The notes under the pieces: model-generated
Databases searched by the model: none
Told to the model about the DNA's origin: nothing
The model's input: only the letters and a program-made list of their open reading frames with translations
NCBI RefSeq assembly: GCF_021325795.1
Contig: NZ_JAHPZX010000003.1
Location: 744,001-808,000, forward strand
Direction: 5' to 3'
Origin: Bordetella sp. LUAb4
GTDB lineage: Bacteria > Pseudomonadota > Gammaproteobacteria > Burkholderiales > Burkholderiaceae_B
DNA length: 64,000 bases
In this document: positions 28,056 to 37,392 of the stretch, one piece after another
Layout: every line of letters starts with the position of its first letter
How positions within the stretch are numbered: position 1 is the first letter of the stretch
Translations under genes and position numbers: made by a program

Positions 28056-29705
<1,650 letters not shown>

Positions 29706-29731
29706 TTACTGGGAATTCTGAGGAGGAGGTA

Positions 29732-30019
29732 TTACTGGATCACGGCGAGGATTTCTTCCTCGCGGATGACGAGCAGTTCCTCGCCATCAACCTTCACGGA
29801 CTGGCCGGCGTACTTGCCGAACAGAACCTTGTCGCCCGCCTTCAGGTCGACCGGCAGAACCTTGCCGTCTTCCGTACGCTTGCCGGGGCCGACGGCGATG
29901 ACTTCGCCTTGGTCGGGCTTTTCGGCGGCGCTGTCAGGGATGACGATGCCCGAGGCAGTTTTGCGCTCGTTGTCCAGACGCTTGATGATCACGCGATCAT
30001 TCAGAGGACGCAGGGCCAT
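29732..30019 (-). CDS. groS: 10-kDa co-chaperonin GroES
   Basis: The 95-residue lid of the GroEL chamber. [18 protein letters not shown], the mobile loop [14 protein letters not shown], and [11 protein letters not shown] with LFGKYAG are all canonical. It is first in the operon; the CIRCE element and sigma-70 promoter lie 76-129 bp upstream of the start. Confidence 0.99.
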
Positions 30020-30148: not shown

Positions 30149-30453
30149 GGGGGGAGGGGGGCGCTGTTACAACTTTGGCTCAGTGTCGAAGTTCATTGAG
30201 CTTGATATTCGACCCGCTGAAGTTGGTCTGTAGCCGCGATCAGAGCCAACAGAAACGCACGGTACGTGGCTGGTTGCGTCCCTTTTAATCGTCCCCGCTC
30301 GGATGTGCGGCTACGGGAGCATTGCCTGGTCTCTCAAATTTGATTACATTGGAACCACTCGGAGCGACTGACCGGATGAGATAGAGCGCTCCCCAGCAGC
30401 GAAAGCTGTACTTGCGCAAGGCGGGTTGTAAATGGTGTCCGGATCTGCAGTAC
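30149..30453. other. Gene-poor start of an accessory island
   Basis: No convincing gene is visible. GC is visibly lower than on either side. A minus-strand open stretch ends at about 30195 (reading ...RLKGTQPATYRAFLLALIAATDQ) and could be the C-terminal scrap of a displaced gene, but I cannot assign it. Confidence 0.4.
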
Positions 30454-31199: not shown

Positions 31200-31796
31200 G
31201 TGCATCTTGTCACCCAGCAAATTGAAGCCGCGTGCAGGCATCAGTTAGGTGATCGACAGGTTCGGGCCGGCGCCCATCAGCGTGAACCCGCGCATCTGTG
31301 TGTTGCTGCCAAAGTCGATGAAATCCTCAGTACCGTCAATAAACTCATTGAACGCGCTCGGATTGCACATGTGCCGGTTATTTGGGTCCAGCACGCCGAT
31401 GAAGCCCTCAGGACAGGCAGCGAAGCCTGGCAGATCGTTGCCGAACTTTCCCCAGAGACAGGCGACCCGATTATCGAAAAGCGTTATCGCGATGCGTTTG
31501 ACGGTACCAATCTGGAGCAGGTGTTGTCGAGACTCGGCATTGGCAAGCTCGTTGTGGCCGGTGCGCAAACGGACATGTGCGTCCGGTCTACGCTCCATGG
31601 CGCCCTCGCGCGCGGCTATGACGCGACGCTGGTCAGCGACGCCCATACGACAGAGGATATGACGCAAAGAGGGGCGCCACCACCGGATGCGGTGATCAGC
31701 CACACCAATATGTACTGGAGCACTCAAAAGGCTCCCGGCCGCTTGGGTGGAATCGCCGAAAGTAAGGACGTCGATTTCGCCGGCTCTGGTTTCTGA
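31200..31796 (+). pseudogene. Isochorismatase-family hydrolase, 5'-truncated remnant
   Basis: From about residue 36 the reading frame matches cysteine hydrolases of the isochorismatase/nicotinamidase fold: IERARIAHVPVIWVQHADEA, IEKRYRDAFDGTNLEQVL (catalytic Lys) and VVAGAQTDMCVRSTLHGAL (nucleophile Cys). The region that should carry the first strand and catalytic Asp (an L-L-V-I-D-M-Q type motif) is absent and replaced by unrelated sequence, so the enzyme cannot be functional. It ends at 31796 facing the TetR remnant. Confidence 0.75.
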
Positions 31797-31968
31797 ACGT
31801 GCTGAGCACCCGGTAAAGCCCACTGCAAAATCGGCTGGTCGTATGGCCGATATTTGAAGCGGTTCCGAAATAACGGTTTTCTCCTTGCTTCCGCAATGCA
31901 GCCAGCCATGCAGCAATCGACCGCTGACCAAACGGCCGGCTACGAGCGTTACCAGTGAACGAGCGACG

Positions 31969-32553
31969 TCAGGCTTTGAGGGTCACGCGCTGGACCGCTA
32001 TCTTCACAAGTGAATCAAAGACGCGAGGATCTTGAAACCCGCGGGCAGCCATCATTGCTCCATGCACCGAGGCCATGAAGAATCTCGCCTCGATAGCCGC
32101 GCTGGCTTCCAAACGGAACTGCCCGCTGGCAACACCCCGCTCAGGATTAACGCAAGCCAACCCGTCAGATCCTCGAAGTGCCCCTGTACTTCAGCAGCAA
32201 CCTCCGCAGGGATGGCTGGAAGTTCAGCCGCAAGCATGGCGCAGATGCAGAACGAGGCCGTACCGTTCTTGATGCACGTGGACCAGTAGCTGGCATAGGC
32301 GTCCAGTTCCGCCGCTGGGTCGTCAAGCTGTCGATCGAGCATCGCCATGCCCTCTCGAGCTTCGGCGCGATATCGCGCTACAACTTCACGGACCAGGTCA
32401 GCTTTGGTGGGGGTGGTAATGAATGCTCGCCTTGCTGATCTGCACGCGTGCAGAGATATCCACGTAGCTGAACCCGTTATATCCCCCGGTTTCCAGGAGC
32501 GATCAAGTAAGCGCTGCGATCTCGGCTGCTTTCGGAGAAAGCTCTGCGTACAT
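31969..32553 (-). pseudogene. TetR family regulator with a stop codon and two frameshifts
   Basis: The start ATG at 32553 gives MYAELSPKAAEIAALT, then an in-frame TGA where relatives have Arg, then SLLETGGYNGFSYVDISARV plus SKASIHYH, which is a clear TetR helix-turn-helix. A 2-base deletion shifts to ADLVREVVARYRAEAREGMA and FCICAMLAAELP. A further shift leads to the C-terminal GAMMAARGFQDPRVFDSLVK, ending at 31969. Conceptual repair gives a regulator of about 195 residues, the usual length. A palindromic site lies 32 bp upstream of the start. Confidence 0.85.
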
Positions 32554-32584
32554 GGCGTGTTTCCCAAATTTATATACAAACCTT

Positions 32585-32594
32585 CTACCAGTAG
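32585..32594. promoter_or_regulatory. Candidate TetR operator 1
   Basis: CTACCAGTAG, extended as ACCTTCTACCAGTAGGTAGA, lies just upstream of the decayed TetR gene and shares the CTAC-N2-GTAGGT core with the site at 32784. Confidence 0.55.
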
Positions 32595-32783
32595 GTAGAT
32601 GATCGGACAAAATCGCCGGCCATCGTCGTTCATCCTGATCACTCCGCCAGGACCCTTGCACAGACCGAAACCGAGAACGCGGCCCTTATCAGCCCGACTG
32701 CCTGCTTTCATGCGGTGGCGTAGCTCGCCCGACCGCTGCCTTCAAACCCTTATCAGCCCCAACGCAAACGAACGTGTTGGCCA

Positions 32784-32803
32784 CCAACCTACTCGTAGGT
32801 TGG
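32784..32803. promoter_or_regulatory. Candidate TetR operator 2
   Basis: CCAACCTAC and GTAGGTTGG form a perfect 9-bp inverted repeat around TC. It lies between the divergent TetR and SDR remnants, where a TetR regulator of the SDR gene would bind. Confidence 0.65.
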
Positions 32804-32823
32804 TATCGCCTCAATCCAAATAG

Positions 32824-32967
32824 CAAGCGCTGGGTGGTATTCCGCTCGGGCGGCCAGCCAGGCCGCGGGAAGTCGCCGATCTGATTACGTTCCTCGCGTC
32901 ACCGCGGGCGGGCTCGATTTCGGGCTCGGAGCACCTGATCGATGGGGGCACGGTGCCGACTGTCTAG
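32824..32967 (+). pseudogene. Short-chain dehydrogenase, C-terminal remnant
   Basis: A 47-codon open stretch reads [20 protein letters not shown] then [20 protein letters not shown] and GTVPTV before TAG. This is the standard C-terminus of SDR enzymes (GRPxRPxEVAxxIxFLAS and the xxGxxxxIDGG element). The Rossmann fold and active site are missing and a TAG precedes it at 32821. It sits downstream of operator 2 and was probably the target gene of the TetR remnant. Confidence 0.8.
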
Positions 32968-32969
32968 GA

Positions 32970-33490
32970 AACTGCTCCTCGAACGCGTATCGGATCACTG
33001 GCGAGTGTTGGATGCAGACGACTGCGATCAGATTTGCGGTGGCTGAACCGAAGCCGATGCCGCAAAACACGAGCGTCGCGGTCACGGCGAGCGCGATGCC
33101 GCGGATTTGCGGCACCAGCTCGATGATGCGCCGTTGCTGCGATGGCCAGGGGATATCCGTGCCGAAGGCCCACACCAGGGGCGTGGCATACTGCCAGGCA
33201 AGGTCGGGGCTCGTCCACCAGAAAATGAAGGTGTCGATGACGAGAATAATCATGCCGGCCACCAGCATTTGCACGGCGCCCTAGCGCCGCGCTGCGCGTG
33301 TCACGAAGAGGTTGCCCGCCACGCCCGTTACGCCGAGCATGGTCAGGGCAGCGGAGATGGTGCCCGCGCTACTGTGGTACACCTCGCGGATGACCGATGA
33401 AATAAATGTGTAGGTCGCATAGACCGCCAGGCTCGACCCTAGTGCGCCCAACACGGGACCGATAAAACCAGCACGCGATGGCGGTGCCAC
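32970..33490 (-). pseudogene. MFS transporter, C-terminal half with an internal stop
   Basis: Three or four hydrophobic helices (GPVLGALGSSLAVYATYTFI; LTMLGVTGVAGNLFVTRAARR; MLVAGMIILVIDTFIFWW; IRGIALAVTATLVFCGIGFG) with the typical WPSQQRRIIELVPQ loop identify an arabinose-efflux-type MFS carrier. An in-frame TAG at about 33283-33285 (complement) follows AARR. The N-terminal six helices are missing. The end runs into the SDR remnant on the other strand. Confidence 0.75.
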
Positions 33491-33823
33491 CGTCGGGACG
33501 GGGTGATTGCCATTGTGTAGAAGAGCCGCCCAATTGGCATGCCGCCATGTGGTCGTTAGTTACGGTTCCGTTCACCCGCCAAAGTCTACTGACGCGTTTG
33601 GACGTCGGCATGTGACGTATCCCCTGTGCTACCGAGGAAAGCTTGCTTGCTGGGCACGCCCTCAAATACTGCAGTCCGAGTGTTGCTCCCTCGCGAAGGG
33701 AAAAATTCCACGTTATGTGAGCGAAATTCGGAAGGCATGAAAAAGGCGCTTGACGGCCGGGACAAATTAGCAAAGAATTTGTCCACTGTCCATGGACTGT
33801 GGACGACTGATTTCAATTGGGCG
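33491..33823. other. Intergenic stretch before the winged-helix/nucleotidyltransferase pair
   Basis: No supported gene is visible. The downstream gene frame is open back to about 33626, with an ATG at 33737, but family comparison favours a start at 33824. No clear promoter was found. Confidence 0.4.
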
Positions 33824-34477
33824 ATGAAAAGTCAAGACATTTTGCTGCTTCTCAAATTGTCCGCGCTGGAGTACCAGGCTCAAACAACGCCTACGGCACA
33901 TGGCGTGTCGGCCAACGGCGACCCGGATCAGCTCGTCGCGACTGATGAAGGCACTGATGCCCGAGATGCCGACACTGACACTTCCGTCTCGCTTCCCTTG
34001 AATCCTGAGTTCGACCCCTATAGCGTACGGGGCTTGTCGAGCTCCACTGGCATTAGTAAGTCCGAGGTGAGCAATGCGCTTGCACGCTGTTACGCCAATG
34101 GACTTGCCAAACCGCAACGGCATGGTGGTGGGCCTCTCGTCAATCGCCGAGGACTCGAAGAATTTCTGTCCTATGGAATAAGGTTCGTATTTCCCGTCCA
34201 AGCGACCGTTCTGACACGCGGCATCCCTACCGGGCTTACGGCGCCGATCTTTCACGGGTTGCTTCGTAGCGCAGGTGATCATTCTCCAGTTTGGCCTGAT
34301 CCACAGGGCAGTACCCTCGGGCTTGCCGTGGAACCACTATATAAAACAGTAACCACCGCGATCCGCAACGACGAAACGCTCTATCGATTGCTGGCAACGG
34401 TGGATTCGATCCGACTTGGACAGCCCCGCGAGCGCAAACTCGCGGTAGCGCACTTACACGATCTCTTGAGTTTTTAA
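33824..34477 (+). CDS. Winged-helix protein paired with a nucleotidyltransferase (candidate antitoxin/regulator)
   Basis: The 217-residue product opens with MKSQDILLLLKLSALE, then a helix-turn-helix (STGISKSEVSNALARCYANG, about 73-92), VNRRGLEEFLSYGIRFVFP and a helical C-terminus ending RERKLAVAHLHDLLSF. From memory this is a recurring family found directly upstream of DUF6036/AbiEii-like nucleotidyltransferases. Between the first helix and the recognition helices is an acidic, Thr/Asp-rich insertion of about 45 residues not expected in the family. The stop is one base before the next ATG, so the pair is coupled. GC is well below the flanks. Confidence 0.7.
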   Translation: MKSQDILLLLKLSALEYQAQTTPTAHGVSANGDPDQLVATDEGTDARDADTDTSVSLPLNPEFDPYSVRGLSSSTGISKSEVSNALARCYANGLAKPQRHGGGPLVNRRGLEEFLSYGIRFVFPVQATVLTRGIPTGLTAPIFHGLLRSAGDHSPVWPDPQGSTLGLAVEPLYKTVTTAIRNDETLYRLLATVDSIRLGQPRERKLAVAHLHDLLSF

Positions 34478-34478
34478 G

Positions 34479-35183
34479 ATGGCCACCATCGAAGATCACG
34501 TCACGATGATACGTACTGTCGCAAGAGCGATGGGACCGGAACTCTGTCAGAACGTAGCATTCGTTGGTGGTTGCACGACTGCTCTTTTGCTGACTGACCT
34601 ATATACGCGGCAACAAGTACGACACACCGAGGACGTGGATCTTATCGTTCACGTCTTGAGCTATGCCCACTGGGAGACCCTGAAGGAACAGCTTCGCTGG
34701 AAGGGCTTCAAGGAGAAGGTGGGCGAGGATCCGATATGTGCGATGTTCCTGGGGCCACTTCGGGTCGATTTCATGCCGGACGACGCAGAGATCCTCAAGT
34801 TCGGGAATGTTTGGTATCGGGATGCACTTGAGAGTGCTGAGCAGCGCGATGTTGGAGAGGGCACGGTGGTCAAGGTTGTGCGGCCTGTGCATTTCGTCGC
34901 TACGAAGCTCGCAGCATATCGTTCGCGAGGGAATAACGACCCATTGGAAAGCACAGACGTAGAAGACATTTTGACCCTGATAGACGGCCGCTCTGACCTG
35001 ATCGAGGAAATATTGCGAGCGGACACTGAATTGCGCGCTTATATCGGCTCTCAAATAAGTAATCTGAAAAAACACCGCGATTTTGAATATGCAGTGGCGG
35101 CTGCCAGCAATGGAGACGCGGCAAGGGAAGAAATAATTGCCAAGCGTATCGACCTTATCAGCTCGTTTGCAAAGCTCACATGA
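34479..35183 (+). CDS. Nucleotidyltransferase-fold protein (AbiEii/DUF6036-like; candidate toxin)
   Basis: The minimal nucleotidyltransferase signature is present: FVGGCTTALL (Gly30-Gly31) followed by TEDVDLIV with Asp52 and Asp54, and a third acidic residue Asp97 in GPLRVDFMP, the expected metal-binding triad. VHFVATKLAAYRSRG and DVEDILTLIDGR further match the family. Related proteins of abortive-infection and MenT-type systems transfer nucleotides to tRNA or proteins; the target here is unknown. The 234-residue length is normal. It is coupled to the winged-helix gene upstream. Confidence 0.75.
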   Translation: MATIEDHVTMIRTVARAMGPELCQNVAFVGGCTTALLLTDLYTRQQVRHTEDVDLIVHVLSYAHWETLKEQLRWKGFKEKVGEDPICAMFLGPLRVDFMPDDAEILKFGNVWYRDALESAEQRDVGEGTVVKVVRPVHFVATKLAAYRSRGNNDPLESTDVEDILTLIDGRSDLIEEILRADTELRAYIGSQISNLKKHRDFEYAVAAASNGDAAREEIIAKRIDLISSFAKLT

Positions 35184-36160: not shown

Positions 36161-36448
36161 CAGTCGGATCGTTCACGCAAGCGTCGTCCGCGGCGCATGG
36201 CGCTTACGCTAAACCATCACACATAAGTCAGATTTGCTGTTGCTGGTATCCGCTCTGGTAACCCCCGGTGCCACGCCGGGGACACACGATCGACGCCCGC
36301 GTTCAGTTACAGATCGCTTTGGTGCATCCTACATGTCCCAATTGAACTATCCAGATCCATAACCGCGGCCTGACGTTGGTCCTGGTCAACGGGCATCCCG
36401 ACCGCGCCTGAACGTTCTTCTCTTTTTTCCTGCCACGCATCATCGACC
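36161..36448. other. Intergenic region before the beta-lactamase remnant
   Basis: No gene is visible. A CCCCGG/CCGGGG hairpin lies near 36256-36276. Base composition returns to the host level here, marking the approximate right end of the low-GC island. Confidence 0.4.
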
Positions 36449-36798
36449 ATGACCGCTCGACTTTCTTCTTGCGCCCGCGGCGCGGCGCTTTCCCTATGGA
36501 TGCTGGCCTGCATCCCGGCACAGGCTGCCGTCCTTTGCACCGTGGTGGCCGACGCCGCCGATGGCCGCATCGTGTTCCAGCAAGGCCCGCACGAGCCGGT
36601 CTGGAATTACCAATCTACTTATCCCGACTGGGCGGCGACGCCTGGCGTAAACCCACGGATCCGGCTCGCTGGATCAAGTATTCGGTGGTCTGGCATTCGC
36701 TGCAGGATGAACGGACTACCAAGCCCAATGCCGGCCTGCGTGCCCGCGACGAGCTGATGCGAGACTGGCCCGCGATGGCCACCGCAACGCGCCAATGA
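36449..36798 (+). pseudogene. Class D (OXA-114-like) beta-lactamase, internally deleted and frameshifted
   Basis: The 5' part encodes a signal peptide and AAVLCTVVADAADGRIVFQQ, the mature start of Achromobacter OXA-114-type enzymes. It jumps to GPHEPVWNYQSTYPDW, missing the segment with the active-site S-T-F-K. After a one-base loss at Trp-Gly it continues in another frame as GGDAWRKPTDPARWIKYSVV, then jumps again to LQDERTTKPNAGLRARDEL and DWPAMATATRQ with a TGA at 36796. At least two internal deletions plus the frameshift have removed most of a protein of about 270 residues. The gene is certainly inactive. Confidence 0.88.
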
Positions 36799-36825: not shown

Positions 36826-37392
36826 ATGCGTATGGAAGACATCACACTAACCGGCAGTCTGAGGCGCGCAATGCTCCGCGTGGGCTTGATGGCGGTTGTC
36901 GTTGCGGCGGCGGGCTGGGCCTGGCCGCGCGTGCCGGATGCCGTTCGCGCACCATGGCATCTGCTGCGCCTGGCGTGGCAGGAGCCGCCTGCCGCCTTGC
37001 CCATGCCGGTCAGCGGCATTACCGCCAACCGCATTGCCGACACCTGGGGCGCTGCCCGGTCCGGTGATCGCCGCCACGAAGGCATCGACATCTTCGCGCC
37101 TCGTGGTACGCCGGTCTTGGCGAGCACCGAAGGCATAGTCACCCGCATCGGCACCAACAACCTTGGCGGTAACGTCGTCTGGGTCATGGGCCCCGGCCGG
37201 ATCATGCATTACTACGCGCACCTGGACGCTTATGCCGATATCCACCGCGGTCAACTCGTCCATCCCGGCGACGTCCTGGGCTTTGTCGGGAACACAGGCA
37301 ACGCCCGCGGCACCCCTCACCACCTGCACTACGGTATCTATGGCAAGGGCGGTGCGCTGAACCCCTATCCGCTGCTGAAAGCAGCAAGTTGA
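36826..37392 (+). CDS. M23 family (LytM-type) metallopeptidase, membrane-anchored
   Basis: An N-terminal signal anchor (about 18-36) precedes a LytM domain with the zinc ligands RRHEGIDIFAPRG (H and D, about 83-95) and the HHLHYGIY motif (about 164-171). GNVVWVMGP and HYYAHLDAY complete the fold. Such enzymes cut peptidoglycan cross-bridges or activate other hydrolases in the periplasm. It lies 27 bp after the beta-lactamase remnant. ATG 36826 or 36832 may be the start. The length of 188 residues is that of a single-domain M23 protein. Confidence 0.9.
   Translation: MRMEDITLTGSLRRAMLRVGLMAVVVAAAGWAWPRVPDAVRAPWHLLRLAWQEPPAALPMPVSGITANRIADTWGAARSGDRRHEGIDIFAPRGTPVLASTEGIVTRIGTNNLGGNVVWVMGPGRIMHYYAHLDAYADIHRGQLVHPGDVLGFVGNTGNARGTPHHLHYGIYGKGGALNPYPLLKAAS

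Follow-up and report, generated by a model that had tools for sequence, protein, structure and literature searches.

A deletion-ruined OXA-114/OXA-364-like beta-lactamase gene near groESL in Bordetella sp. LUAb4

Introduction

Bordetella sp. LUAb4 carries, at positions 36449–36798 of the window (the whole stretch of 64,000 nucleotides that was analysed), what sequence comparison confirms to be an OXA-114/OXA-364-like class D beta-lactamase gene ruined by deletions. Very probably, this is the dead remnant of the OXA-114/364-type gene of a blaI - blaR1-like - blaOXA operon near groESL. The gene is confirmed as a pseudogene made by deletion, an ordinary case in a known enzyme family, and it probably encodes no beta-lactamase and does nothing now.

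PMC10893412 describes OXA-258, OXA-243 and OXA-364 as ubiquitous and species-specific in several Achromobacter species, and OXA-114 as constitutive. In PMC12381979, OXA types follow clades, and one A. denitrificans isolate stands in a table without a class D entry. One A. xylosoxidans lineage without blaOXA-114 is reported in PMC8477396. The A. xylosoxidans and A. denitrificans cases thus give precedent for the absence of an OXA gene from a lineage. The A. xylosoxidans case is alike in that an Achromobacter lineage is missing its usual OXA gene. It differs in that the passage cited does not state the route of the absence, whereas in LUAb4 a remnant and its junctions are visible. Among the open-licence papers listed for blaOXA, Achromobacter, and pseudogenes, BlaR1 or groEL, no title or abstract opening describes the present finding.

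Identity and extent of the remnant

The remnant consists of colinear pieces of one gene that are gapped relative to intact relatives and lie at one site only, as in a pseudogene made by deletion. Piece 1 (36449–36586, plus strand) holds the signal peptide and the mature N-terminus and corresponds to positions 1–46 of the NCBIfam profiles NF033815 (OXA-364-like) and NF033818 (OXA-114-like). Piece 2 (36580–36699, plus strand) corresponds to profile positions of about 76–115, and piece 3 (36700–36798, plus strand) to the C-terminus (profile 244–275), with a stop codon at the same end as in intact relatives. All three were delimited by profile searches and blastn, piece 3 by alignment as well. In place of an uninterrupted frame of ~275 codons there are two that overlap, of 102 and 109 codons. 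The first frame (36449–36754) matches positions 1–46 of both profiles, with E 4.7e-20 for NF033815 and 2.4e-19 for NF033818, and the second (36469–36795) matches NF033815 at 244–275 (E 2e-22) and NF033818 at 244–274 (E 3.1e-22). The OXA-114/364 family profiles match in pieces only, the best scoring 79.6 bits against cut-offs of 620–625, and no Pfam family was found for either frame. When the whole genome was searched in six frames with NF033818, four colinear pieces were returned at this single site (profile 1–46, 76–95, 91–115 and 244–274).

At the DNA level, blastn aligns the remnant with Achromobacter insuavis over 36349–36591 (79.9%, E 2e-55), 36576–36703 (86.0%) and 36699–36794 (80.2%). 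The remnant begins at ~36349, about 100 bp upstream of the start given in an earlier note on this DNA. In the LUAb4 genome (20 contigs) the remnant DNA is single-copy. Signal peptide, mature N-terminus, middle and C-terminus are recognisably those of the OXA-114/OXA-364/OXA-258 family of Achromobacter (NCBIfam NF033818, NF033815, NF045795), and the remnant is preceded by the end of the same kind of gene (blaR1-like). In contrast to the family, its frame is broken and all three catalytic motifs are gone.

Two shorter matches were seen outside these genera. Window 36703–36756, in the C-terminal piece, is 87% identical over 54 bp to OXA-926 of Klebsiella plasmids (five records, four from human samples and one from activated sludge). 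Window 36630–36704 matches two Caballeronia replicons at 80%, and no gene is annotated there at the matching place.

Deletions, junctions and catalytic motifs

Aligned with the A. insuavis gene by MAFFT, the remnant has three gaps, of 93, 1 and 384 bp, so that 478 of 828 bases (stop included) are absent. Alignment with OXA-114-family genes placed each deletion, and similarity extends past the signal peptide into the middle and the C-terminus. Together with the colinear profile pieces, these gaps bear out the earlier note, which had read the stretch as an OXA-114-like fossil made by internal deletions.

The 93-bp deletion is in frame. Its junction (36580–36586, plus strand; located by alignment and motif position) is the sequence GCAAGGC, which is present in A. 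insuavis at both ends of the deleted stretch, and a deletion between short direct repeats is therefore likely. The origin of this deletion between CAAGGC repeats, as first proposed, is accordingly plausible, CAAGGC being part of the longer repeat. In B. genomosp. 1, the two ends corresponding to the gap are less alike than in A. insuavis. STFK (A. insuavis residues 59–62), the active-site Ser-x-x-Lys, lies inside the deleted stretch and is absent from the remnant, just as had been reported from the sequence. Likewise, the base said to be missing at Trp-Gly is indeed missing: the G run at 36630–36632 (plus strand) is one base short and shifts the frame, the run being longer in each of the nine intact relatives compared.

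The 384-bp deletion is also in frame. Its junction lies at 36699–36700 (plus strand), with an exact overlap of 1–2 bp by eye, a position that is ambiguous by a few bases. MAFFT places a gap of identical length ~16 bp further right; such placements were dropped because local DNA matches and the profile borders give 36699–36700. This deletion has removed YGN (A. insuavis 136–138) and KTG (206–208), both of which have a role in class D enzymes. With none of the three motifs left, hydrolysis of beta-lactams by the remnant would not be expected.

Both large deletions are multiples of three. Chance alone would give this in one case out of nine, and it was not taken as a sign of selection. A domesticated short secreted protein, encoded by the 102-codon frame, was also considered and rejected; the intact start and the signal peptide are all that speaks for such a reading.

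The blaR1-like tail and the operon of intact relatives

Homology to intact loci (blastn) begins at 36349 when the comparison is with A. insuavis or A. dolens, and at 36361–36364 with five others, and continues into the OXA remnant. The beginning of this block (36349–36411, plus strand; blastn, tblastn) is the 3' end of a blaR1-like sensor gene, ~20 codons and the stop, cut off upstream. The protein match between A. insuavis BlaR1-like residues 258–277 and window 36349–36408 (65% identity, tblastn E 0.02) is weak by itself. The tail is followed by the blaR1-OXA intergenic stretch that is kept in intact relatives (36412–36448, plus strand), inside the continuous alignment 36349–36591. The ~20 codons of the tail are all that is present of regulator genes upstream of the remnant; no leftover of blaI or of upstream blaR1 was found in the window between groES and 36349, and the operon is thus deduced from the blaR1-like tail alone.

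Both blaI-like and blaR1-like genes were detected upstream of OXA in 10 of 80 OXA loci (tblastn, E 1e-8), a count that includes short and distant loci, in which a miss does not mean absence. The 10 loci are those of A. ruhlandii, A. deleyi, UMC71, A. dolens, B. genomosp. 1, ASV32, A. aloeverae, HZ34 and two Ralstonia (L071, L126). The A. insuavis locus, cut by a contig end, has blaR1 only, and neither gene was detected at the same threshold in the other 69 loci, some of them short or distant, B. ansorpii included. An acyltransferase-like gene lies 3' of OXA in nine of the 10 loci and in A. insuavis, and was undetected in HZ34. The window shows no convincing trace of an acyltransferase remnant. 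In its place, directly 3' of the OXA remnant, is an M23 peptidase gene (36826–37392, plus strand; PF01551 E 3.5e-24). Among the five genus mates compared (see below), G002 has a near full-length homologue of the M23 gene (87%) and G004 a 31-residue piece (77%). Synteny was also considered for a stretch at window 45.6–48.4 kb, which we take to be ABC transporter-like. A. deleyi, UMC71, A. dolens and ASV32 have its counterpart (65–73% identical DNA) upstream of OXA. It was rejected as too weak, with order and distance differing. A tblastx comparison of the window with twelve loci yielded for the most part linked chance matches and was set aside.

In B. genomosp. 1, the gene upstream of OXA (L063:8238–9980) encodes a fusion of an M56 domain of BlaR1 type with an S11 D-Ala-D-Ala peptidase domain (Pfam, this locus only), and a Penicillinase_R (BlaI-type) gene precedes it. 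Homologues of the M56+S11 sensor gene were found by tblastn in L060, L066 and other relatives. The staphylococcal BlaR1 has a class D-like sensor, not an S11 domain. OXA-114 is called constitutive in PMC10893412, yet a blaI-like repressor gene and a sensor gene directly precede its relatives.

A variable site beside groESL

The remnant starts 6.3 kb from groES. groEL and groES (28056–30019, minus strand; Pfam Cpn10 1.1e-35, Cpn60 4.9e-76) form the conserved left edge of the site. The genus mates compared were A. aloeverae AVA-1 (G001), G002, G003, G004 and HZ34 (G005). The DNA at 28.0–30.2 kb is 95.5–97.0% identical to A. aloeverae, G002 and HZ34, and 89.4–89.5% identical to G003 and G004. Just past groES, at 30178–30204, homology with the window stops in all five. 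Two short exceptions lie beyond, one in HZ34 (69% over 189 bp) and one in G004 (67% over 281 bp). Compared with each other past groES, the mates have, besides groESL DNA and a second groEL copy in A. aloeverae, one 182-bp match between HZ34 and G002. It is this near-absence of common DNA, between the window and the mates and among the mates, that marks the site as variable.

In the window, the site holds several other genes between groES and the remnant. At 31200–33490 are an isochorismatase frame (domain match from profile position 21) and TetR-like and MFS-like remnants (Pfam, below cut-off), a cluster that probably consists of decayed genes. A tentative AbiEi/AbiEii-like gene pair follows (33626–35183, plus strand; Pfam MarR_2 and AbiEii, both below cut-off, and no NCBIfam match at E 0.01), and there is also a membrane protein gene. 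The second AbiE-like gene accounts for the 281-bp match to the DNA adjoining groES in G004, which lies inside two similar frames for which no Pfam family was found. G003 seems to have a methylase and DUF262-like cluster at this site, judged from translations alone.

OXA phylogeny and the site of the genus mates' operon

LUAb4 is placed beside HZ34 with 100% ultrafast bootstrap when groEL/ES is combined with a second locus, and with 77% on groEL/ES alone. In the OXA tree, built on 350 aligned columns of which some relatives cover just 242–293, the genes of A. aloeverae, HZ34 and G002 form a clade of their own (99% ultrafast bootstrap). The remnant groups with Achromobacter proper, B. genomosp. 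1, G135 and two records labelled Pseudomonas (93–96%), its exact place within this clade being poorly supported (41–47%). The two records (L061, labelled Pseudomonas nicosulfuronedens, and L062, labelled P. bharatica) have their OXA genes inside the Achromobacter-type clade, with blaI and blaR1 undetected; transfer between families or contamination is possible.

In HZ34 and A. aloeverae, homologous flanks enclose a blaI-blaR1-OXA operon, plus some additional DNA in each. At the counterpart site of LUAb4 (C14, about 929.4–930.5 kb), the flanks are kept and the operon is absent; the interval holds an 891-bp stretch common to A. aloeverae, and a sensitive search found no remnant of the operon there (best E 0.37). 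Parsimony suggests that the native operon was cleanly lost from LUAb4, the alternative being that it could have been inserted independently in HZ34 and A. aloeverae. The OXA gene of G002 is at yet another place, its similarity to HZ34 and A. aloeverae being limited to the gene alone; a full-length blaR1-like gene was looked for in G002 and not found.

The OXA genes of A. aloeverae and HZ34 are preceded by blaI and a blaR1-like gene, of which the remnant has a blaR1-like tail, and they are unlike the remnant in clade and in chromosomal site. The remnant had been described as a species-marker resistance gene lost by deletion. This part of the earlier note is not supported, because the remnant falls outside the OXA clade of the genus mates and the operon of HZ34 and A. 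aloeverae belongs to another site, from which it is absent in LUAb4. An extra or foreign operon is more likely than the lineage's species marker.

Changes found in the remnant only, counted over the mature part at codon positions 1, 2 and 3, number 5/72, 3/76 and 10/56 (18 changes, small counts). The same count for intact genes gives 5/77, 3/79 and 7/63 in B. genomosp. 1, 5/77, 3/79 and 5/61 in A. ruhlandii, 2/74, 0/76 and 6/62 in A. dolens, and 0/72, 0/76 and 2/58 in A. insuavis. The remnant has the most changes, yet mainly at third positions, a pattern suggesting that the gene was working and under selection while much of its divergence built up.

Beta-lactamases elsewhere and other broken OXA genes

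Three profile searches found no other class D gene in the 20 contigs of LUAb4, between which a gap could hide one. The general class D model, which scores 137.6 bits with the intact gene of B. genomosp. 1, has no match, and NF033818 returns the pieces of the remnant only. Five transpeptidase matches lie exclusively in long frames of 600–1030 codons, the size of penicillin-binding proteins. An intact second copy, which the earlier note had named as a possible source of the feature, was thus looked for and not found. LUAb4 does have, at C10:448309–449103 (L166), a class A beta-lactamase frame that appears complete. The general class A model (cut-off 200) gives it 315 bits, split over two stretches; among the named families shown (the best 25 of 95), it falls short of every cut-off, PEN-type models being the closest. 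Judged by this frame, LUAb4 need not be susceptible to beta-lactams.

The NF033818 search gave a match in 20 of 151 genomes, and one of at least 90 bits in nine besides LUAb4. Two of the nine genes, both from members of the same family as LUAb4, are broken. The gene of G135 (L048:5390–6230) has a frameshift near residue 172, which may be a sequencing error, and that of G040 (L016) has the C-terminal part only and an in-frame stop. The remaining seven (G001, G002, G005, G008, G013, G052, G071), only some of which were checked further, have no stop within the match.

Proposed history of the remnant

We suggest that an operon of the OXA-114/364 type once lay near groESL, where gene content turns over. 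Its blaI, most of its blaR1 and the operon promoter would have been lost or replaced by unrelated genes. Recombination or slippage at the short direct repeats would have removed 93 bp of the OXA gene, an illegitimate deletion would account for the missing 384 bp, and the G run would have lost one base, in an order that we leave unspecified. The operon may have been the second in the lineage, either acquired or retained from an older duplication. We lean towards such a second operon, rather than the lineage's own, because the remnant belongs to another clade and to another site.

The main competitor is vertical descent, in which the common ancestor with B. genomosp. 1 already had a groESL-linked operon that every sampled genus mate then lost, the window keeping its last trace. 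B. genomosp. 1 (L063) has blaI, blaR1 and OXA directly beside groES, its OXA belongs to the clade of the remnant, and neighbour and orientation are the same in both; shared descent could explain this instead of two arrivals. The two differ in that the three frames of B. genomosp. 1 are open and adjoin groES, whereas other genes fill the interval in the window. Moreover, none of the five genus mates has a class D match at the groESL site, so that several losses would be needed, and the variability of the site makes independent arrivals easy to suppose as well. Each species was sampled by one genome. We regard vertical descent as unlikely, though worth keeping in view. It is more doubtful still that the gene arrived already broken together with neighbouring DNA and never worked in this lineage. 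The patchwork of neighbours (the isochorismatase frame, the TetR-like and MFS-like remnants, the tentative AbiE-like pair) and the different place of the M23 homologue in G002 would fit such an arrival. Against it, a plasmid search gave only short partial matches and no carrier, Pfam showed no transposase among the neighbouring frames examined, and no direct repeat brackets the remnant; the one inverted pair has an arm inside the remnant (36745–36761) and the other at 33924–33940.

An artefact of sequencing or assembly is very improbable. The 1-bp loss in a G run is at a typical place for errors and the genome is in 20 contigs, but losses of 93 and 384 bp and a missing blaR1 and blaI would be unlike the products of read errors. 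Least credible of all, to the point of being negligible, is the idea that the remnant is a partial copy of an intact OXA gene lying at another place in LUAb4, given that no intact class D gene came up in the profile searches and the remnant DNA occurs once.

Returning to the second-operon reading, a wider one can be offered tentatively, at somewhat less than even confidence. The LUAb4 lineage may have lost two regulated OXA operons, its own one cleanly from the site occupied in HZ34 and A. aloeverae, and an Achromobacter-type one by decay near groESL. Class D genes of these bacteria would then be acquired at variable sites and dropped again, time after time, instead of being stable species markers, a reading that draws also on the broken OXA genes of G135 and G040. 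The remnant is a case in which the deletion junctions are still readable. LUAb4 lacks the operon of its relatives at their site and holds a dead OXA gene of another clade, and near this genus the presence, absence and type of an OXA gene can thus mislead as a marker of lineage.
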